This document shows, piece after piece, positions 34,390 to 44,664 of a stretch of DNA of 49,385 nucleotides. The stretch comes from Candidatus Zymogenaceae bacterium. Lineage in GTDB: Bacteria; Desulfobacterota; Zymogenia; Zymogenales; Zymogenaceae. The notes below the pieces were generated by a model. The model saw only the letters and a program-made list of their open reading frames with translations, did no database searches and was not told the DNA's origin. Made by a program: the position numbers and the translations under genes. The stretch covers positions 1 to 49,385 of the forward strand of contig JAFGFE010000037.1 of the NCBI GenBank assembly GCA_016931225.1. The letters are read 5' to 3'. The first letter of the stretch is position 1, and every line of letters begins with the position of its first letter.

Positions 34390-36123
34390 CTAACTGGCGG
34401 CGGCCCTCTTTCGGGCGTTCAGGTCCTTGAGGGCGGTCTGGATCATTTCGTCGGCGGTTTTTCTTCCTTCAAGGGGGGCGACCCCGACGCTGAGCGATAC
34501 TTCTTTCAGATTCTTGTCTATCCGACTCACGATTCGACCGGCAATGGATTCGGCGTCTTCGATCTGTGTATGGGGAAGGATGAGGGCGAAATCGTCGGAG
34601 CCGTATCGAAAGGCGGTGTCCATATCCTCGCGAATGGACTTCTTGATGAGCTTTCCGAGCTCCGCCAGCATTCGGTCCCCCTTGAGATTACCGTTGGTTT
34701 CGTTGTATTCGGCCAGGTTGTCGATATGATAGATGACAAGGGACAACGGAGTCGATGAACGAAGGGCCCGCTTGACCTCGTCCTGCATTTTCTCCGCGAA
34801 ATGCACTTGGTTAAAAAGCCCCGTGACGATGTCGGTTATCGAGAGTATCCGCATCTGTTCATCGATCGCCTTCCTGTCGCTGATATCCCGGGCGATTCCC
34901 TGTCCTCCGGTGAAAACGCCGCTTCGGAATATCGGTGATGAGTTGATCTCCAGCGAGACCTCTCTTCCGTCCTTTTTAACGGCCTCAATCTCCATTCCCT
35001 CCACATCATTTCCCGACTCGATTCTTTCCAGCATCGCCGAAATCTGGCCCTTTGTCGACGGGGTAAAAAGAGAGTGGAGTGGCTTGCCGATAAGCTCGTT
35101 TGGAGTGAAACCGGTGATGCGAAAAACGGCCGGGGAAATATAGGTGAAGATCCCCGCATCGTCGAATTCATATATCACATCAAAACTTCGTTCTGCGATA
35201 CCGCGAAACCGCTCCTCGTTTTCCAAGATACGCCGCTCCGCCTCGAACCGATCCGTGATGTCCCTGAACCGCCAGACACGGCCGGAGAATTTTCCGTTTC
35301 TGGTCAACGGGTGGGTATATCTTTCCAGGGTGCGGCCGTCTTTAAGCTTGAGCAGGTCCTGGGATTCATCGTTGGTGTGATACAGCTCCTTGATGGTGGA
35401 AAGAAATACCTTCGGTTCCTCCAGCATCCCCAGAAAATGCTCCAGGAGCAGTTCGTCGTTTTTTTTCAGAGACAGGTCCTTGGGAATCTGCCACAGGCTG
35501 ATGAACCGCTCGTTGGAGTGGGTCACTTCGCCGTTTTCACCGACGACGAAGATGCCGTCTCCGATGGATTCGATGGTGGCCTTGAACAGTTGCTCGTTTT
35601 CCTTCAGGGCCGCCTCATACCGCTTCCGCTCATTGATCTCGGTCTTGAGCTGTTCGTTGAGCTTTGTCAGTTCATGCGTCCGCTCCTTTACCCGCTCTTC
35701 CATCTCATCATAGGCGTTTTTCAATTCATTGCGGACTTTTTTTCGCTCCATGGCGTACCGGATGGCGCGAACCAGAATGGCCGGGCGCATCTCCACCTTG
35801 AACAGGTAGTCCTGAGCTCCCTCGGTAACGGCGCGAACCGCAATATTCTCGTCTTCTACCGAACTCAGAACGATAACGGGGAGTTCCGGCGTAACTCCCT
35901 TGATGCGAAGGAATGTATCGATCCCCTCGCTGTCGGGGAGGGTCAAATCCAGGATAATCAGGTCGATATCGTGCTTGGCAAGCAGATCGATGCCCTTCAT
36001 CAAATGGTCGGCGTGCAGTACAGAAAATTTCGTCCCGGCGGTATCATGGAGCATATCCTTGATTAACCGGGCGTAGCCGGGGTCATCCTCGACTATTAGA
36101 GTTGAGATGGTGTTTGTGGTCAT
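34390..36123 (-). CDS. Receiver-PAS-PAS protein with degenerate GGDEF domain
   Basis: A 577-residue response-regulator-like protein. The receiver (1-120) has phosphoacceptor Asp59 in IILDLTLPDSEG and a VEDD acidic pocket. A coiled coil (about 135-190) precedes two PAS domains (195-320 and 325-440), then a GGDEF-fold domain whose signature is GSDDF (508-512) instead of GGDEF. It also has GNLKGD where GHLAGD is usual and lacks the terminal ADxAMY block, so diguanylate cyclase activity is doubtful and a c-di-GMP- or protein-binding role is possible. ATG 36123 was chosen because the receiver begins there. It is a tandem paralog of the 36258-37610 gene, 134 nt away. Confidence 0.9.
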   Translation of the reverse strand: MTTNTISTLIVEDDPGYARLIKDMLHDTAGTKFSVLHADHLMKGIDLLAKHDIDLIILDLTLPDSEGIDTFLRIKGVTPELPVIVLSSVEDENIAVRAVTEGAQDYLFKVEMRPAILVRAIRYAMERKKVRNELKNAYDEMEERVKERTHELTKLNEQLKTEINERKRYEAALKENEQLFKATIESIGDGIFVVGENGEVTHSNERFISLWQIPKDLSLKKNDELLLEHFLGMLEEPKVFLSTIKELYHTNDESQDLLKLKDGRTLERYTHPLTRNGKFSGRVWRFRDITDRFEAERRILENEERFRGIAERSFDVIYEFDDAGIFTYISPAVFRITGFTPNELIGKPLHSLFTPSTKGQISAMLERIESGNDVEGMEIEAVKKDGREVSLEINSSPIFRSGVFTGGQGIARDISDRKAIDEQMRILSITDIVTGLFNQVHFAEKMQDEVKRALRSSTPLSLVIYHIDNLAEYNETNGNLKGDRMLAELGKLIKKSIREDMDTAFRYGSDDFALILPHTQIEDAESIAGRIVSRIDKNLKEVSLSVGVAPLEGRKTADEMIQTALKDLNARKRAAAS

Positions 36124-36257
36124 GGGCTTTCTCTCGGAATATATCGTAAGCGGCCAAAACGTCGGTTTTTCTTCACAGACAACCTCTGAGGATGTTAAAG
36201 GCGGCACGCATGAGAGATGTTTTCAATGATGAGTAAACGTACCGATACCTGTTGGTT

Positions 36258-37610
36258 TTATTTTTTCGCCTCTTTTTGCGAATACATCGCCCGATCCGCC
36301 GCGTTTATCATGGAGGTTATATTTGCGTGATCTTCAAAGGAGGCGATACCCAGGCTGATATCTATGTCGTTCGGGAGCGAACGGATGGAGCCCCGTATAC
36401 GTTTTGCCACTGCGGCGGCGTCGGTCTTTTTCGCCGATGGAAGGATAATGGCGAATTCATCCCCTCCGTATCTGAACGCGGTGTCTACATCCTTTCGGAT
36501 TGAGTTGGCGGTGATTTCTCCCACATGTTTCAATATCTCGTCGCCGGCAAGGTGGCCGTTTTTGTCATTGAATTTTTTGAAATTGTCCAGATCGAAGACC
36601 ATCAAACACAGTGGATACGACATTCTTTTCGCCCGGCTGGCCTCCTCGTTGATTTTTGTATAGAAATAACGCTGGTTGTACAAATTGGTGAGGCTGTCGG
36701 TAATGGAGAGTCTCCACAGCTCCTCTTCCATCTTCTTTCGCTCGGTTATATCTCTTGCGATCCCCTGCCCGCCGAGGACCTTTCCTTCCCGGAGTATGGG
36801 AGATGCGTTTATCTCTATGAATCCCGGGGCGCCGTCCTTTTTTTTGATTCCGCACTGGACTCCTTCGATGTAGGACCCTCCGAGAAGCGTATCAATTGCC
36901 TGGGAAACACGACTCTTGTCCTCTTCGGAGATGAAGGTCTCGAGTGGGATGTTGATGATCTCATCCGGCGTATAGTCGAAGATGCGCTTCACGGCGGGGG
37001 ATGTATAGAGGAATTGACGCTCGCTGCCGATCTCGAAGATCATGTCGAAGCTTCTTTCCGCGATGCCGCGAAACCGCTCTTCGCTCTCGGCCAGTGACTC
37101 CAGGGCCCGTATGCGCTCCTCCACCTCGTTTTGTAGTCTGTTGTTGACGTCTTCCAGTTCCTTCGTGCGTTCCTTGACCCGGAGCTCCAGTTGATCCCGG
37201 GCCTGCTCGAGTTCCTCCTGAACCCGCTTTCTCTCCACCGCGTAACGCAGGGATCGAATTAAAATATCCCCTTTCACCTCCATTTTAAACAGGTAATCCT
37301 GGGCGCCGTCCTTGACCGCTTCCACGGCGGTTTTCTCGTCTTCTATAGAGGTGAGAATGACTATGGGGAGTTCCGGATATTTTTCCTTGAGACGGGTAAA
37401 CGTATCGATGCCCTCGTTATCGGGGAGAATCAGGTCCAGGAGAACGACATCGACCTTTTCCCGATCGAGATACTCGCATCCTTCTCCCAGGGTCTGGGCC
37501 TGAGCTATATCGAAGACGGAGTTGTTTGGCTCGGACAGCATCTGGACGACGAGGTCACGAAAGCCGGGATCGTCTTCGATCAGCAGCATGGATAACGGTT
37601 CGTTTTTCAT
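36258..37610 (-). CDS. Receiver-PAS-GGDEF diguanylate cyclase
   Basis: A 450-residue response regulator predicted to make c-di-GMP. The receiver (1-125) has Asp59 in VVLLDLILPDNEG. A coiled coil (130-170) precedes one PAS (about 175-295, with LGGQGIARDITERKK at its end), then a GGDEF domain with intact FRYGGDEF (GGDEF 382-386), GHLAGDEIL and ADRAMY. The usual inhibitory RxxD site before the signature reads KDVD, so product inhibition may be absent. No cognate kinase is adjacent; hybrid kinases in the window are candidates (inference). The start codon has no clear ribosome binding site. The upstream region has clustered inverted repeats. Confidence 0.93.
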   Translation of the reverse strand: MKNEPLSMLLIEDDPGFRDLVVQMLSEPNNSVFDIAQAQTLGEGCEYLDREKVDVVLLDLILPDNEGIDTFTRLKEKYPELPIVILTSIEDEKTAVEAVKDGAQDYLFKMEVKGDILIRSLRYAVERKRVQEELEQARDQLELRVKERTKELEDVNNRLQNEVEERIRALESLAESEERFRGIAERSFDMIFEIGSERQFLYTSPAVKRIFDYTPDEIINIPLETFISEEDKSRVSQAIDTLLGGSYIEGVQCGIKKKDGAPGFIEINASPILREGKVLGGQGIARDITERKKMEEELWRLSITDSLTNLYNQRYFYTKINEEASRAKRMSYPLCLMVFDLDNFKKFNDKNGHLAGDEILKHVGEITANSIRKDVDTAFRYGGDEFAIILPSAKKTDAAAVAKRIRGSIRSLPNDIDISLGIASFEDHANITSMINAADRAMYSQKEAKK

Positions 37611-37643
37611 CGATAACGATAAAAATAGTAGTACTTTTTTTAT

Positions 37644-37730
37644 TTATCCGCTTAAAATATTTATATTATCCATATATATAAATTATTCGGGGTGACACAA
37701 AAACAGTGTGTCATAACAATAAGCGGATAA
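37644..37730. repeat. 11-bp inverted repeat with 65-nt centre
   Basis: TTATCCGCTTA (37644-37654) and TAAGCGGATAA (37720-37730) are perfect inverted arms enclosing an AT-rich core and the first TGACAC/GTGTCA pair. They lie 35-120 nt upstream of the receiver-PAS-GGDEF start. Confidence 0.7.
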
Positions 37731-37787
37731 AAGAACCCTTTTCTTTTTTTGTTTTGTGATATGTGTCACACTCGGGATGTATGACAC
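37693..37787. promoter_or_regulatory. Cluster of four TGACAC half-sites
   Basis: TGACAC (37693-37698) with GTGTCA (37708-37713), then GTGTCA (37763-37768) with TGACAC (37782-37787). Two dyads of the same 6-mer, in opposite orientations, within 95 nt suggest binding sites for one dimeric regulator controlling the diguanylate cyclase at 36258-37610. Confidence 0.45.
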
Positions 37788-37961
37788 TCTGAGTGAATAA
37801 CCGGCGTGGGCGGCGTGAAGCGTGAATCCAAGGTGTTTGATGCAGAGCAAGGAATATTCTTAAAAAAGTTGAAAAGCCGGGTTAGGTAATAAATTATCTT
37901 GAGCCTTTTATATAATACCCATGATATAAATTTTTGTCAAATACTTTCTGTGAATAATTGA

Positions 37962-37994
37962 AGACTAAAATATTTAAATTTAATATTATAGTCT
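37962..37994. repeat. AT-rich 33-nt palindrome
   Basis: Arms of 13 nt (AGACTAAAATATT and AATATTATAGTCT, one mismatch) with a 7-nt AT centre. It lies about 190 nt downstream of the PAS-GGDEF stop codon. It could be a weak hairpin or binding site; no T-run follows. Confidence 0.5.
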
Positions 37995-38180
37995 AAATAA
38001 AACAGCTGTACACTATTATGTAGCCTGGTCCATTCTCCGGTCGACTTCCCCGGTTGGATCGCTTAAGTATGTCCACTTCGTACAATTTCAGGCCGTACAT
38101 TTGTGGAATAGTTCGGTGAGTGATCGCCTTCTGATGAAGCGGACACAATCGAGAATGCTCGCGATATGGGACGGGTGGTG

Positions 38181-39806
38181 TTATAGGAGGGATTTTTGCC
38201 TTTGGGCGGTCTTGTAGGCGTACATGGCCGTATCGGCCCGTTCGATGAACACGTCGGTGGTGTCGCCCGGTTTCCACTGGGAGACGCCGAAGCTGACGCC
38301 GATATCGGGAATCGTCTGGACCACCTGGCTCTGGATACGCCGGGCCACGGTGTGGGCCTGAGACTCGTTCGCGTCGGTAAGGATCACGGCGAATTCATCT
38401 CCGCCGTACCGAAACGCCGCATCCACCTCCTCCCGGATACAGGCGGCGGTAATTTCCCCCACCGTTTTGAGGACGACGTCACCGGCGAGGTGGCCGTGGA
38501 TGTCGTTATACTGCTTGAATCGATCAAGGTCGAAGACGATCAGGGAGAGGTTCTGTTCCAGCCGTGTCGCCCGGACGGTATGGGTATTGATGATGCTGAA
38601 AAAACTGCGTTGATTGTAGAGTCCGGTAAGGCTGTCGGTGGTGGAAAGCCGAATGAGTTCGTCCTCCATCTTTTTTCGCTCGGTAATGTCGCGGATGGTA
38701 TGGACCGATCCGCGGATTTCACCCCAGGCGTCCAGGATGGGGGCGGTGCTTATCAGCAGGTGAGCGCCGCCTCTGGCCGGCTCTGTCATCTCAATACATG
38801 CAGGTTTTTTTGTCCTGATGGTCTTGATGTGAGGGCAGTCGGGACAGGGATCGGACCTGTGGTGAATCACTTCAAAACAGCGGATGCCGATGAGTTCACG
38901 AGGTTCTTTATGAAATGCGTCGGCGAACGCCCGATTGACCTTGACGATGCGAAACTCGCGATCGTGGATGGATACGAGATCGGTAATGGAATCGAAGGTG
39001 ATACGCCACTCGTCGGACGCCTGCTTGAGTACGTCCTCCCACTGGCGGCGCATGGTGATGTCCTCGATGAAGCCGGTCAGCTTCGGGGAGCCGCCTTTTT
39101 CATCCCGGATCGGAAACACGCGATGAGACACCCAGCGAACGGCGCCCTTTTTTTGTATGATACGGTACTGGAGCGCCAGGGAGGCCCCCACGTTTTCCTT
39201 GAAGGTCCTGACGATATCATCCCGGTCGTCCGGGTGGATGACGCTGAACCAGAGCCCCGGCTCCCGATAGAGGCTCAGGTGGTCGTAGCCGTAGATTCGC
39301 TCGAAGGCGGGGCTTACGTAGATGAATTTCTCCTCGGCGGGGGCGTAAATCCAAAGGAAGATCGGCATGGCGTCCAGGGCCTCCCGTATCAACCTGTCCC
39401 AATTCTCCGGCAGCTCCGGAGTTTCGTAATCGATGGCTGTGGCGCGGGCGATAAGGCGGACATACTCGGTGTTTGATTTTCCGGAGAAGAGGTCCGCACT
39501 GACCGACATGGTGTGGGCGACCGTATTCCTGTCGAGGAGTGTGAGGGTTCCCTCGGAGACGGATGCGTGAGAGAGATTGTCCAGGAGGGGGGAGAGGGAG
39601 GTCGCCCCGCCCATTATCAGGTCCGACAAGGGAACGAGGAGCAGCTCGTCGTCGGTATATCCCAACAGCCGTGCGGCGGCCTGGTTGACCTGTATGATAA
39701 CTGCGTCCGGGTATAAGAGGATGAATACGGGATCTGATATACGCTGAAGCAGGGTGTCGTCTGATATTCCGGGCGCTACAGCCTGGAAAAGAGGGGCGTC
39801 CTTCAT
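38181..39806 (-). CDS. PAS-PAS-PAS-GGDEF diguanylate cyclase
   Basis: A 541-residue protein without receiver or membrane segment. PAS-like domains lie at about 17-115, 135-260 and 265-395, followed by a GGDEF domain with intact FRYGGDEF (GGDEF 468-472), FDLDRFKQYND, GHLAGD and ADTAMY, so c-di-GMP synthesis is expected. No canonical RxxD I-site is present (it reads EEVD). The third PAS contains C310-x10-C321-x2-C324 (CFEV...PCPDC), the same spacing as in the kinase at 1-2634, perhaps for metal or redox sensing (inference). The ribosome binding site is weak. A well-formed -10 lies upstream. Confidence 0.92.
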   Translation of the reverse strand: MKDAPLFQAVAPGISDDTLLQRISDPVFILLYPDAVIIQVNQAAARLLGYTDDELLLVPLSDLIMGGATSLSPLLDNLSHASVSEGTLTLLDRNTVAHTMSVSADLFSGKSNTEYVRLIARATAIDYETPELPENWDRLIREALDAMPIFLWIYAPAEEKFIYVSPAFERIYGYDHLSLYREPGLWFSVIHPDDRDDIVRTFKENVGASLALQYRIIQKKGAVRWVSHRVFPIRDEKGGSPKLTGFIEDITMRRQWEDVLKQASDEWRITFDSITDLVSIHDREFRIVKVNRAFADAFHKEPRELIGIRCFEVIHHRSDPCPDCPHIKTIRTKKPACIEMTEPARGGAHLLISTAPILDAWGEIRGSVHTIRDITERKKMEDELIRLSTTDSLTGLYNQRSFFSIINTHTVRATRLEQNLSLIVFDLDRFKQYNDIHGHLAGDVVLKTVGEITAACIREEVDAAFRYGGDEFAVILTDANESQAHTVARRIQSQVVQTIPDIGVSFGVSQWKPGDTTDVFIERADTAMYAYKTAQRQKSLL

Positions 39807-40068: not shown

Positions 40069-40896
40069 TCAACTCAGGTCCGCCACCCGATCGACCCGAC
40101 TCAACAGACGTGTGACCATCGAGTCCAAATCCTCGGTAACAAGGCTGATCGCCCCCTCGGGACATGCCGTCACGCATCGGGCGCATCCCTTGCAGTCATT
40201 TCCCACCACGGCCACCCCGTCCTCGATCCGCATCTCGGCGGCAAAGCAGATTTCCGCGCATATCCCGCAGCCGGTACAGAGCTCCGTATCGACCGTGATC
40301 GATACCCCCGGCAGCTTTTTGTAGGCCTTGTTCAGGTTCGGTCCCCGCCGGGTCATGTGGGTACGGTAGAGGCAGCAGCAGTCGTCGCACAGGCAGATGA
40401 ACATGAGTCGATTGAAGGGAACGGTATGAAACGCCACGGGGTCTATCCAGACGTGGGCGACGCTGGCCACAAGGCCCGCCTCTCCGGCCCGGGCGACATG
40501 CCGGACGGCCTCATCCGTCGTAACGAAGCGCCCGTGGGAGGGATGCATGCGCCGGGTGGCTTTTCCCAGGGCGATGCAGCCGATGTCCACGGGGTGATTC
40601 GTGCAGCCTTGTTTTTGCCGGCAGATGCACTCGTCCAGGATGAAGATATCCGGAGTTCGTTCAAGAAGGGCCTTGACCACCTGAAAGGGGAGGGCCACGC
40701 TGTCCGGAGGATTGAGGCGAACGTCGATGGGCACCGCCGTCAGTTCATTCTGGGGATACCTGAAGAAGGGATTGATGATCCAGGAAAACGGGGGGATATC
40801 ACTCAGGCGTTTGGCGGCGATCATCAGCGGCCACGAGAGCTTGACCGACCACCTGACAAACCACTTGGGAGGCCCGTATCGAAGAAGTTTATCCAT
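40069..40896 (-). CDS. Cysteine-rich 4Fe-4S protein, paralog 1 (divergent copy)
   Basis: A 275-residue protein, third in transcription order of a tandem triplet. Features in order: a hydrophobic/aromatic N-terminus (WFVRWSVKLSWPLMIAA); the block C90-x-C92-R...C98-x-x-HP...C107; the dense cluster C168-x-C-x2-C173-C-C (CLCDDCCC); and two classical 4Fe-4S motifs, CTGCGICAEIC and CKGCARCVTACP. Function is not recognised. The ferredoxin motifs suggest electron transfer; the extra Cys block could bind another cluster or metal (inference). It is more divergent than its two siblings, and its first motif reads CICR rather than CTCR. The ribosome binding site AAAGGATAT precedes ATG 40896. Confidence 0.85.
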   Translation of the reverse strand: MDKLLRYGPPKWFVRWSVKLSWPLMIAAKRLSDIPPFSWIINPFFRYPQNELTAVPIDVRLNPPDSVALPFQVVKALLERTPDIFILDECICRQKQGCTNHPVDIGCIALGKATRRMHPSHGRFVTTDEAVRHVARAGEAGLVASVAHVWIDPVAFHTVPFNRLMFICLCDDCCCLYRTHMTRRGPNLNKAYKKLPGVSITVDTELCTGCGICAEICFAAEMRIEDGVAVVGNDCKGCARCVTACPEGAISLVTEDLDSMVTRLLSRVDRVADLS

Positions 40897-40948
40897 GGTT
40901 TATATCCTTTCGCATTCCCACCGGGGCTTCGGAAATCTTCTTATAGTA

Positions 40949-41773
40949 TCAGCGGTAATCGATGAGCTCCTCAATGCGCCCCATCAGCTCATGCACCGTC
41001 CGCTCCATATCGTCGATATGGATGCTCACGGCACTGTGGGGGCAGACGGTCACGCAGCGGCCGCATCCCTTGCACGTCTCTTCGTTCCGTATCACCCGAT
41101 TTCCTTCAAAGCTGAGCGCCTCCATGAAACACTCGTCGATGCACTCGCCGCAGCGGGAGCAGGCGTCATCATCGATATCGATCTGGAGCCCGTCGAGGCG
41201 CACCAGGGATCGGGCCGCATCAACAGGGAGGTACTTGCCGGAATTGAGAATAGTACAACAGCACCGGCAGCAGTGACAGATCGTCAGGAGCTTCCCCCGA
41301 TCCCGTACCCCCCAGATGAAATTATCGATCTTGACCCGGCCGATCATCGGGATCAGGCCGTCGGCCAGAGTGCGATCCAGGTGGGCGAGGGCTTCATCCA
41401 CCGTTGCATGCCGGGCGATGCGGGGGTCGATCTCCTTTGTTCCCTCACCCAGGAGTGTGCAGCCGTAGTCGATGGGGTGCTCGGTGCACGATCGATCGTC
41501 CCGGCAGGTGCATCGCTCGATGATGACCCGGTGACCGGAGCGGCGAATGAGCTCGGACGCAACCTCCCGGGGCAGAAAGCTGCTCTGTGTTCCTCCCAGG
41601 GTTTCATTGAGGGGAATGTATGAGACATTCAGATTCTTTTTTGAAAACAAGGGAAGGCTGAGGGCCGCCACCACTCCTCCGATGAGTGGAAGCCTGGTGG
41701 CCCGGGCGGAGAGCCAGGTGATCGGCCAGACGGCCGCAAGAACCGTCAGCCACCAGTGGGGTCTTCGAGACAT
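40949..41773 (-). CDS. Cysteine-rich 4Fe-4S protein, paralog 2
   Basis: A 274-residue protein of the same architecture and numbering as paralog 3. The N-terminal hydrophobic region (WWLTVLAAVWPITWL and LPLIGGVVAALSLPLF) may be membrane-associated. C88-x-C90-R...C96-x-x-HP...C105 (ERCTCRDDRSC), the cluster C166-x-CC-x-CCC (CHCCRCCC) and two 4Fe-4S motifs (CSRCGECIDEC, CKGCGRCVTVCP) follow, then a short helical tail. The spacing of all cysteines is conserved between paralogs 2 and 3. AGGAG precedes ATG 41773. Separated by 52 nt from paralog 1 and 78 nt from paralog 3, all on the minus strand, so a single operon is likely. Function unknown. Confidence 0.87.
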   Translation of the reverse strand: MSRRPHWWLTVLAAVWPITWLSARATRLPLIGGVVAALSLPLFSKKNLNVSYIPLNETLGGTQSSFLPREVASELIRRSGHRVIIERCTCRDDRSCTEHPIDYGCTLLGEGTKEIDPRIARHATVDEALAHLDRTLADGLIPMIGRVKIDNFIWGVRDRGKLLTICHCCRCCCTILNSGKYLPVDAARSLVRLDGLQIDIDDDACSRCGECIDECFMEALSFEGNRVIRNEETCKGCGRCVTVCPHSAVSIHIDDMERTVHELMGRIEELIDYR

Positions 41774-41851
41774 GTCCGGACTCCTGTTTGTGAAAAACTG
41801 GTGAAGGAACGTACCCCACGGTGCCGGGGTGTTTTGCTTATAAAATCCTTT

Positions 41852-42676
41852 CTATTCGTAATCGACGAATCGTCCGATACGTGCGAGTATGTCGTTGATG
41901 GTCTCCTCAATGTCGTCCACGGTCTCCCTGATCGCGCCGGTGGGACATGCCGTGACGCACATGCCGCACGCCTTGCACCGGACCAGATCCCGTATCAAGA
42001 CACCGCCTTCCAGAGAGAGGGCGCCCATGAAGCAGCTCTCGATACATTCGCCGCAGGCGATGCAGTCCTCCTGGGAGGTTTCGATCCTGAGCCCCGGGAG
42101 CGGCACCAGGGAGGCGTGGATCGCGTCCGGCAGGTATTTGCCGCTGGCGAGGATCGTGCAGCAGCAGGTGCAGCAGTAGCAGGTGGTTAGAAGCCGTCCC
42201 CGGTTTTTCACCCCGTAGAGGAGGTTGTCGATTGGGGCGCGGCCCACCAGGGGGATAAGTCCGCTCTCCAGGCATTTATCTACATGCTCCAGCGCCTCCT
42301 CCACTCCCACCTGCCGGGCGATGTTTTCATCGATCTCTGCGGCGCCATCCCCCATCAGGAGGCAGCCCAGCTCGATCGGATGCCTCAAACATCCCCGCTC
42401 CAGACGGCAGGTACAGTGGTGAATGATCGCCCGGTGTGAGGACCTGCGGATCAGCTCTTCTATGATTTTTCGCGGCAGGTGCGTTGAGCCGATCCCCTGG
42501 ATCTCATGGTGTATGGGCACGTAGGTGAGGTGCTGTTTTTTCGGCGAAAAAAGGAAGGAGGTGAAAAAAGCCAGGAGCTTTCCAAGCACCGGCACCCGAT
42601 AGAGGCGGCCGCCGATCCAGGTCAGGGGCCAGAAGAAGGCCACGACCTTCAGCCACCATTTCGGTCGTTTGCCCAT
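41852..42676 (-). CDS. Cysteine-rich 4Fe-4S protein, paralog 3
   Basis: A 274-residue protein, first of the triplet in transcription order. N-terminal hydrophobic stretch WWLKVVAFFWPLTWIGG. Cys88, 90, 96 and 105 form the HCTCR...HP-x-x-x-GC block (an analogous C-x-CR...C...P...C pattern occurs in other anaerobe ferredoxin-like proteins). Cys166-173 form CYCCTCCC, and two 4Fe-4S motifs lie at 205-215 and 234-244 (CIACGECIESC, CKACGMCVTACP). With 18 cysteines it could hold three or more clusters. The start is weak in ribosome binding site, but the N-terminus aligns with paralog 2. Electron carrier or cluster-assembly role is inferred only. Confidence 0.87.
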   Translation of the reverse strand: MGKRPKWWLKVVAFFWPLTWIGGRLYRVPVLGKLLAFFTSFLFSPKKQHLTYVPIHHEIQGIGSTHLPRKIIEELIRRSSHRAIIHHCTCRLERGCLRHPIELGCLLMGDGAAEIDENIARQVGVEEALEHVDKCLESGLIPLVGRAPIDNLLYGVKNRGRLLTTCYCCTCCCTILASGKYLPDAIHASLVPLPGLRIETSQEDCIACGECIESCFMGALSLEGGVLIRDLVRCKACGMCVTACPTGAIRETVDDIEETINDILARIGRFVDYE

Positions 42677-42795
42677 AGGAGATATCCGATCGATTTTCGG
42701 TAGGGGGACTGATTCATGCCAGAGAGTTCAATTGACAGGCAAGTATAGCACAGGTGGTGGAAAAAGGATAGGAAACAAACCTTTTCGAACAAAGA

Positions 42796-42826
42796 CGGGC
42801 CGGAACGACAATATCGTCCCGGCCCG
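42796..42826 (-). terminator. Probable terminator of the porin-like gene
   Basis: A long hairpin: CGGGCCGG and ACGA arms pair across a 5-nt loop with one mismatch. On the minus strand it is followed by TCTTTGTTCG, a weak T-tract. It lies 38 nt after the barrel stop codon and before the Fe-S triplet. Confidence 0.6.
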
Positions 42827-42863
42827 CAGGTATCGCTTGATCAGAGATCTCTTCTTGAGGCGG

Positions 42864-44576
42864 TTAAAACTCGTAGGTCAGGGTGTTTATCCAGCGATAG
42901 ATCTCTCCCCACTCCTCCCGCTCTCCGGTCTGAATGTTGCGATAATCGAAAGCGTCTCCGCAGAAGAGCACACCGAATTCCGATGACAGGGTCAAACCCT
43001 CCATGATCTTCCAGGTGAGGCCCGCGTCGATTTCCCACCCCAGGTCGTCGCTGACGTCGGCCGGGAGGTATGTGTAGGCGCCCCTGACGTAGTTCATGGG
43101 GTGTCCGTAGAATGCGTTCCAGTCGGGCAGTCTGTTGAGATTCGCGTCCCGGGCGTCCCGACCCACCGGCTCGGTGTACTTCGCCCATACCACCGCGCCG
43201 TGGATGTCCAGCGATTCAAAGGGAGCGAGGCTCCAGTAGAGCTTCAGGGAGGTGACGTTTTCCTGGTTGTTGCCCAGCCCCAGGGGAGACGTATCCCCGA
43301 CGGCGCTGTTGAGATATTCCGGATTGCCGCAGACAATGATGTTCGACCAGGAAAAATCGCTCATGGATTCGGTGTTGAAGTTGAAGTTTTCCTGGGTGAT
43401 GCCGGACCACCATTTTTCACCGGAGCCGTATAGAAAGGCCACGCCGACGGTGAAGATGTCGAAATTGACCGAGAGATCGGCGTATATGTTCAGTCCCTCC
43501 AGATCGAGGCTGTTTGGAATGCGTTTCCCCGGCATGGGGGTGAAGGGAAAGGCTATGGTCGCCAGGGTGTTGTTGTATCCCCTGCCGTAGGTGTTTATCA
43601 CGCCGGTGCCCCAGATGCGGTCAACCTCTCCCTTGAAGCGGAGCATTCCTTCGGCAAATTGGAAGTCCCAGAAAAAGCCCAGGGCGTAGACCTGCCAGTC
43701 ATACAGGCCCGCCAGACCGATGCCGGTCTGGGTCTGGGGGAATACCGGATTGGGCACCGGCCAGCTGACCGCCGCGACGGTCGGATCGACCATTTCTCCA
43801 TTGAAGTCGTTGCCGGTGATGCCCCGCATCGACACGGCCGACGAGATGCCGCCGGGATCTACCAGATACTGGAACAGCGCCCCGGCCGAGTACCGATCCG
43901 ACAGGTACATCACCATGAAAGTGTACGCGTCCATATCCGAGTTGTAATTGATGCTTGAAGGACCGCCGGTGGCATCGAGCCCGGTTCTGCCGGGCCACGT
44001 GAGGAGGCCTATCATGTCAACCGCCCGCTCGACGTATTTCGTGTAAGCCGCCGAGACGACCAGCTCTTCAATCTTGATCGCCCACTTGATGTCGAAGTTG
44101 GTGACCGTACCGCCGGAGCCGAGATACGTTCCCATGCCCCAGCCCCGATCCAGGGTTCCGACGGTGAAGAGCCCCACCTTCGGCACCAGGAACTCCAGAT
44201 AGGCCTCATGGATGACGGCGCCGTTTATGCTGTTGTTCATCCGGAAGGGTCTGTTTCCGCCCCAGGTATCCTCGACGATATCGATCGTGACATGCGCCTT
44301 CAGGTACTCGCTTTGCGTGTGGGTGATGCTCAGGCGAAAGCGCTGGTCGAAATACCGGGTGGAGAGACCATTGGAGTGGCTGGGATATCTGACGGGACCG
44401 GAGATGGTGTTTGTTGTGAGGTCTCGGTTTTCCTTTCCCCAGTTGTGGTCAATGACCGAACGGACGCGGTAAGAACCGGTGAAGGTCGTCTCTGCGGCAA
44501 AAAGCGGCACGGCCGAAAAACAGATAAGCACCAGGACGGTCGCCAATGCAACCAACTTTGATATATTGTCTTTCAC
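42864..44576 (-). CDS. Porin-like outer-membrane beta-barrel protein
   Basis: A 570-residue protein with signal peptide (VALATVLVLICFSAV, cleavage near LFAAE) and alternating amphipathic beta strands to the end. The C-terminal INTLTYEF finishes in Phe, as expected for BAM substrates. Repeated strand pairs (YRVRSVIDHNWG, RFRLSITHTQSEYLKAHVTIDIVE, GWEIDAGLTWKIMEGLTLSSEFGVLF) resemble general porins or alginate-type barrels; substrate unknown. I chose the GTG start at 44576 because GAGG lies 6 nt upstream and the signal peptide begins there. An ATG-led frame from 44645 adds 23 residues. It precedes the Fe-S triplet on the same strand, but a terminator-like hairpin lies between. Confidence 0.86.
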   Translation of the reverse strand: MKDNISKLVALATVLVLICFSAVPLFAAETTFTGSYRVRSVIDHNWGKENRDLTTNTISGPVRYPSHSNGLSTRYFDQRFRLSITHTQSEYLKAHVTIDIVEDTWGGNRPFRMNNSINGAVIHEAYLEFLVPKVGLFTVGTLDRGWGMGTYLGSGGTVTNFDIKWAIKIEELVVSAAYTKYVERAVDMIGLLTWPGRTGLDATGGPSSINYNSDMDAYTFMVMYLSDRYSAGALFQYLVDPGGISSAVSMRGITGNDFNGEMVDPTVAAVSWPVPNPVFPQTQTGIGLAGLYDWQVYALGFFWDFQFAEGMLRFKGEVDRIWGTGVINTYGRGYNNTLATIAFPFTPMPGKRIPNSLDLEGLNIYADLSVNFDIFTVGVAFLYGSGEKWWSGITQENFNFNTESMSDFSWSNIIVCGNPEYLNSAVGDTSPLGLGNNQENVTSLKLYWSLAPFESLDIHGAVVWAKYTEPVGRDARDANLNRLPDWNAFYGHPMNYVRGAYTYLPADVSDDLGWEIDAGLTWKIMEGLTLSSEFGVLFCGDAFDYRNIQTGEREEWGEIYRWINTLTYEF

Positions 44577-44635
44577 GGCAAACCTCGAAATAATAGTGAC
44601 AGAGAAAAGCCGAACAACGGATAGAACAGTGAAAT

Positions 44636-44664
44636 ACCCTATCATTGGATATAGACAATGTCAA
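44636..44664 (-). promoter_or_regulatory. Promoter candidate of the porin-like gene
   Basis: On the minus strand a consensus TTGACA (44664-44659), 17-nt spacer and TAGGGT (44641-44636), about 60 nt upstream of GTG 44576. The -10 is weak. Confidence 0.4.

Follow-up and report, generated by a model that had tools for sequence, protein, structure and literature searches.

Three adjacent genes in the window, i.e. the whole stretch of 49,385 nucleotides of Candidatus Zymogenaceae bacterium that was analyzed, encode proteins in which a cysteine-dense region precedes a ferredoxin domain. The question raised by this locus is what the additional cysteines are for.

Cysteine content and recognized domains of the triplet

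The initial annotation claimed three adjacent genes of 274-275 codons, and minus-strand open reading frames indeed span exactly 40069-42676. Overlapping plus-strand open reading frames could be dispensed with, because the minus-strand products have relatives along their whole length. The genes, designated P1, P2 and P3, and their features are:

42795..42827, minus strand: terminator-like hairpin upstream of P1, 15 pairs followed by a T-rich tail (prediction only)
41852..42676, minus strand: P1 gene, 274 aa, 19 Cys, cluster CYCCTCCC
42542..42676, minus strand: P1 residues 1-45, basic/aromatic N-terminal helices (modeled helices 8-15, 17-25 and 29-42)
42083..42541, minus strand: P1 ten-Cys domain, residues 46-198
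42362..42415, minus strand: P1 Cys block A, C88-x-C90-R91, C96, C105
42158..42181, minus strand: P1 Cys block B, C166-Y-C168-C169-T-C171-C172-C173
41945..42064, minus strand: P1 2[4Fe-4S] ferredoxin motifs, residues 205-244 (Pfam Fer4; fold match residues 193-261)
40949..41773, minus strand: P2 gene, 274 aa, 18 Cys, cluster CHCCRCCC
41180..41638, minus strand: P2 ten-Cys domain
41459..41512, minus strand: P2 Cys block A
41255..41278, minus strand: P2 Cys block B, CHCCRCCC
41042..41161, minus strand: P2 2[4Fe-4S] ferredoxin motifs (Pfam Fer4)
40069..40896, minus strand: P3 gene, 275 aa, 17 Cys, cluster CLCDDCCC
40297..40755, minus strand: P3 ten-Cys domain
40576..40629, minus strand: P3 Cys block A, C90-C107
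40372..40395, minus strand: P3 Cys block B, CLCDDCCC
40162..40278, minus strand: P3 2[4Fe-4S] ferredoxin motifs (Pfam Fer4)

The genes are separated by 78 nt (P1/P2) and 52 nt (P2/P3), and since the predicted hairpin parts P1 from the next gene upstream, the triplet is probably a separate transcription unit. Common to all three proteins are a C-x-C-R...C...GC block, a dense cysteine cluster and a C-terminal 2[4Fe-4S] ferredoxin domain. The three clusters read as initially annotated, but the pattern C-x-C-C-x-C-C-C, which had been attributed to all of them, holds for P1 and P2 and not for P3, which reads C-x-C-D-D-C-C-C, one cysteine of the dense cluster being replaced by Asp (Asp171, the equivalent of P1 C169). 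P1 and P2 have 18 cysteines at identical residue numbers; the claim that these two paralogs keep every cysteine was off by one, as C135 is an additional cysteine of P1. P2 and P3 are 50 and 32% identical to P1, respectively, and P3, with its 17 cysteines, is the copy that had been described as diverged. Between P2 and a Spirochaetes homolog the identity is 63%. The pattern C-x-C-[CD]-x-C-C-C arises 1 to 4 times per 100,000 shuffles of each of the three proteins. Because shuffles rarely yield it and the cysteine positions are kept in 184 non-redundant relatives, a chance origin of the cluster was excluded.

The tandem CxxCxxCxxxC pair of a 2[4Fe-4S] ferredoxin domain is present in all three proteins, and Pfam Fer4 matched two stretches in each of them with E values of 2e-10 to 3e-12. 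Together with the fold match, this agrees with the two standard 4Fe-4S motifs claimed per protein, and it is predicted from the motifs that the C-terminal domain likely binds two [4Fe-4S] clusters. This domain, residues about 200-250, is the only region recognized by Pfam, NCBIfam and PDB sequences; none of the three gave a characterized family over the full length, and residues 46-198 were left unmatched. The initial claim that ferredoxin motifs do not account for the first eight to ten cysteines was supported, for all ten.

The 2[4Fe-4S] ferredoxins (Fer4 PF00037; C. acidurici ferredoxin and the C-terminus of HdrA) resemble P1 residues ~193-261 in both motifs, with Z scores of about 9-10, but they cover only a quarter of P1, and the ten-Cys domain and the N-terminal helices lie outside them. 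EFR1 family ferredoxin (NF038196) and RnfB-like Fe-S proteins (PRK07118) likewise end in a 2[4Fe-4S] domain that is preceded by another domain; however, their matches comprise only residues about 200-252 and stay under the curated cut-offs. For NF038196 the best score was 47.3 bits against a cut-off of 75, in the C-terminal part only, which places the proteins outside this family. The polyferredoxins MvhB and FwdF, which are the best PDB sequence matches of the triplet proteins, also contain several Fe-S motifs per chain, but the likeness is confined to the repeated ferredoxin motifs and they lack the C-x-C-R...C-x-C-C-x-C-C-C domain. The ferredoxin half is ordinary, and the protein is a ferredoxin-coupled Fe-S protein, which is a known kind.

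When 114 diverse sequences of the ten-Cys domain were compared with Pfam-A, scattered chance matches were obtained, each in at most 3 members. NCBIfam gave 0 families at E 0.01 or better for the same sequences, and the best match of the domain among PDB sequences had an E of only 0.3. An AlphaFold2 model of P1 made with 96 sequences reached a pLDDT of 89.2 and a pTM of 0.86, and in a PDB fold search with this full-length model ferredoxin domains were the sole matches. Because only the ferredoxin part was matched, the ten-Cys domain was modeled separately, resulting in a pLDDT of 80.8, with a core above 90. Compared with the PDB, this model, the ends of which are of low confidence, gave a best E of 0.99 with Foldseek and a best Z of 2.4 with VIA. 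The missing match is consistent with a fold without a solved relative and is no proof of a new fold.

The CCG or HdrB-type cysteine-rich domains (PF02754) are likewise dense in cysteines, occur in strict anaerobes and work with Fe-S partners, but their cysteine spacing differs from that of the ten-Cys domain. PF02754 matched none of the 114 domain sequences and was not found in Pfam scans of P1-P3, and hhalign of the ten-Cys domain with TfrB (CCG) gave a probability of 0.7%, i.e. no detectable profile similarity. Nothing relevant on the motif or domain was found in the open papers searched, most subscription journals being outside this search. The benzene-activation 'Magic' cluster (PMC13101534) was rejected as a described relative, as its cysteine-rich protein is Hdr-like, and the ten-Cys family is absent from the text of the Desulfococcus biacutus acetone paper (PMC4103992). 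Neither Pfam nor NCBIfam nor the open literature that was searched has a name for the ten-Cys domain.

Cysteine conservation and covariation

The full complement of 18 cysteines, eight of which belong to the ferredoxin and ten to the domain before it, is kept in 161 of the 184 non-redundant relatives, and all ten domain cysteines are present in 84 of 97 proteins that were found by the profile alone. C-x-C-R was present in 104/104 family proteins from the loci compared, block A not being part of the pattern with which named genomes were scanned (see below). In P1 numbering, losses at C88, C90, C105, C166, C168 and C173 amounted to 1 in total and losses at C96, C169, C171 and C172 to 40. In six proteins, which belong either to the P3-like clade or to L104, all four losable cysteines are gone and all six constant ones are retained; this joint loss occurred in at least two lineages. 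The P3 protein of the window lost only C169 from the four-Cys set (to Asp), and the L010 protein lost one cysteine from each set. A Fisher test for the loss of C96 versus C172 resulted in a p of about 1e-9, with relatedness ignored; only three to four cysteine-loss changes occur on the tree, and a paired sign test was without power. The loss pattern, which is clear but comprises few independent events, suggests two separate metal sites beyond the ferredoxin clusters.

In a mean-field direct coupling analysis of the 184 sequences, the pairs 99-170 and 108-165 ranked 2 and 3 of 25,005. Their ranks were unchanged when ten-Cys rows only were used and were 2 and 1 in the short forms alone (architectures are described below), and therefore these couplings do not derive from the clades that lost cysteines. 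Residues 98 and 99 follow C96 and residue 170 lies within the dense cluster; residues 108 and 165 are in strands adjoining C105 and C166. As the coupled residues adjoin or sit within both cysteine blocks, the covariation supports a site common to blocks A and B.

Origin and distribution of the family

In the phylogenetic tree, P1 groups with single orthologs of three other genomes in its taxonomic family with a support of 100. P2 lies outside this ortholog group, near a Spirochaetes and a Desulfobacterota homolog, and P3 is found in a separate clade, also with a support of 100, with homologs from G013, Spirochaetes, Syntrophaceae and others. Since they are placed in separate groups, P1, P2 and P3 are old paralogs; a recent tandem duplication was rejected because the orthologs with which P1 clusters come from other genera, and P3 clusters with homologs from Spirochaetes, among others. 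P1 is present in 4/4 genomes of the host's family, and one also has P3. The idea that the triplet is a system conserved as a block did not hold, as P1, P2 and P3 occur together in this genome only and P2 is absent from the other three genomes of the family. Adjacent pairs of a P1/P2-type and a P3-type gene were found in G013 (L071), a Spirochaetes contig (L081), a Syntrophaceae contig (L082) and G067 (L078).

Between the P2-like and P3-like genes of the Spirochaetes and Syntrophaceae contigs (L081:10835-11104 and L082:10844-11176) lies a gene whose product, a small membrane protein (89 or 110 aa), had no match in Pfam and no convincing homolog in this genome (E 0.001). Runs of about eight successive family genes that combine short with long forms were observed in L066:5193-15056 (G077:C246) and L074:1380-9551 (G041:C364); these tandem arrays are far larger than the triplet.

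In a survey with the domain profile, in which a match was defined as E 1e-10 or better, an even sample of 395 genomes of the phylum contained 195 with the ten-Cys domain; at the genus level these amounted to 122 of 246. Named genomes were scanned with the pattern [TFS][VI]CxC[CD]xCCC, which partly builds in the conservation of block B among its matches. Bacterial relatives were found in Spirochaetes, Syntrophaceae, Actinomycetota, Chloroflexi and KSB1, and archaeal ones in Lokiarchaeota, Heimdallarchaeota, Thorarchaeota and Thermoplasmata as well as in Methanobrevibacter, Methanosphaera, Methanosuratincola, Methanofastidiosum and others. Among bacteria and archaea that avoid oxygen, the domain is common. 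A plasmid search gave no match, and none was found in viral contigs.

Three architectures were observed. Short forms of about 250-300 aa correspond to P1-P3, long forms of 350-420 aa have a TrmB/MarR-like winged helix ahead of the ten-Cys domain, and fusions to a short-chain dehydrogenase-type (SDR) domain are about 600 aa long. The winged-helix long forms (L054, L056-L060 and many single-copy loci, L208-L227) often occur once per genome.

Membrane contact, gene neighborhood and possible function

A hydrophobic N-terminus had been taken to indicate membrane association. The maximum Kyte-Doolittle 19-residue means are 1.43, 1.58 and 0.77 for P1, P2 and P3, and among 122 short forms a value of at least 1.6, the usual level of a membrane span, was reached only once. 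The proteins may plausibly touch the membrane peripherally or in plane, although the case for this is weak; a standard transmembrane helix was not found and short helices are predicted instead; it is possible that the modeled residues 1-45 of P1 form an in-plane membrane anchor.

Upstream of the hairpin, the triplet is neighbored by genes for a 593-aa protein without a Pfam match, an ABC1/UbiB-type kinase and an FMN reductase, and downstream by a gene for a PAS/GGDEF protein. The 593-aa protein (window 42864-44645, minus strand) has a signal-like start and, judged by eye, is possibly an outer-membrane barrel. Window positions 34390-39806 (minus strand) contain three successive apparent PAS/GGDEF signaling genes, two with receiver-like starts, relatives of which adjoin P1 orthologs in L071 and L162. 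Among the neighbor domains of relatives, FAD oxidoreductase was the commonest (7/120), followed by NAD-binding and amine-oxidase types, SDR and epimerase. In L104:3310-9744 a run of FAD-dependent oxidoreductases, one of them CrtO/CrtI-like, lies between two family members, one of which is without the four-Cys set. Eight Methanobrevibacter loci (L121, L129, L132, L136, L137, L151, L156 and L158) share the order tfrB (CCG, 2Fe-2S, 4Fe-4S), SpoU methylase, short-form Fe-S protein, dcd and a conserved gene of ~566 aa. A role in methyl-reducing methanogenesis was rejected, as this SpoU/tfrB-dcd arrangement is confined to those eight loci, and so was corrinoid methyltransferase activation, as MttB genes are beside two relatives and absent beside the others.

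An electron-transfer or metal-binding role, as suggested in the initial annotation, is still the most likely one. The reading we prefer, and to which we give an even chance, is membrane-peripheral electron transfer in which one or two additional metal sites act together with the 2[4Fe-4S] ferredoxin domain. Blocks A and B would fold together around two such sites, probably Fe-S clusters, with the six nearly never-lost cysteines (C88, C90, C105, C166, C168, C173) as ligands of site 1 and the four jointly lost ones (C96, C169, C171, C172) as ligands of site 2. Electrons would be exchanged between a soluble donor or acceptor and the ferredoxin pair, between this pair and sites 1 and 2, and between these sites and a partner enzyme at the membrane surface. 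P3-type proteins, in which site 2 is disappearing, would represent a form with fewer centers, working alongside a complete P1/P2-type protein. Electron transfer is supported by the ferredoxin domain, the cysteine conservation, the couplings, the confident model and the redox neighbors. Against it count that no partner is conserved around single-copy relatives and that there is no classical transmembrane span; moreover, ten extra cysteines are not obviously needed in a carrier. The small number of independent events behind the joint cysteine loss and the mixed loss in L010 also count against it. A more far-reaching proposal, which we hold only tentatively, is that the domain is a new metal-binding fold with a non-standard Fe-S center on the six cysteines next to a dispensable four-Cys cluster, that it is fed by the fused ferredoxin, and that it performs a reduction common to anaerobic bacteria and archaea from early in their history.

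The only partner with direct gene evidence, in several Desulfobacterota, is an SDR enzyme. Genes of one SDR subfamily adjoin short forms in four genomes (L068/L115, L166, L221 and L222), on either side, and the same subfamily is fused in five loci, with the SDR/epimerase ahead of the ten-Cys and ferredoxin domains:

L061:5405-7240, SDR fusion
L062:4327-6087, SDR fusion
L063:5184-6992, SDR fusion
L064:2944-4809, SDR fusion
L065:6550-8358, SDR fusion

Acyl-CoA ligase genes are near several SDR-linked loci and thiolase genes are nearby too; beside the triplet, an SDR gene of that subfamily was not found. These associations, together with the conserved non-cysteine residues of the domain (R91 in 98%, P68, G109, E127 and L140), argue for a catalytic Fe-S enzyme, in which the ten-Cys domain would hold a substrate-binding or non-standard cluster fed by the ferredoxin and the SDR partner would act on the same substrate. 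The six constant ligands could fit, for instance, a double-cubane cluster, or a five-Cys non-cubane cluster plus one. However, no substrate or pathway is common to the gene contexts, neither the sequence nor the profile of the domain resembles the HdrB-type CCG domain in TfrB, and it has no solved relative; we consider a catalytic role rather unlikely.

The winged helix of the long forms, which are often single-copy and in that state have no conserved neighbor or partner gene, would fit a redox or metal sensor, in which the ten-Cys domain senses and the long forms signal through the winged-helix domain. In the host's family of genomes, the triplet or P1 is also found beside response-regulator or PAS/GGDEF genes, but this adjacency of GGDEF genes may be chance, and the short forms, including P1-P3, lack this helix, and their ferredoxin domain is suited to electron transfer, so that sensing appears unlikely for the family. 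Handling of Zn, Cu, Ni or a comparable metal, or carriage of Fe-S clusters, with the dense thiols as transfer site, is very improbable: the vicinal CC-x-CCC could bind soft metals and four positions tolerate loss or Asp, but in bacteria and archaea alike six cysteines hardly vary, the fusion to a 2[4Fe-4S] domain points to a redox function, and metal-transport or cluster-assembly genes were not recognized nearby.

With electron transfer as the preferred reading, the family is probably a widespread redox protein awaiting its first experiment. One or more copies are present in many archaea and in about half of the phylum's sampled genomes, and the domain has no name in the curated libraries searched and no solved relative. 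The division into six constant and four losable cysteines predicts two metal sites, which is easily put to the test, with P1, P2 and P3 in one probable operon as natural variants with and without one ligand. If the extra clusters are present, the annotation 'ferredoxin' conceals a multi-center redox protein.
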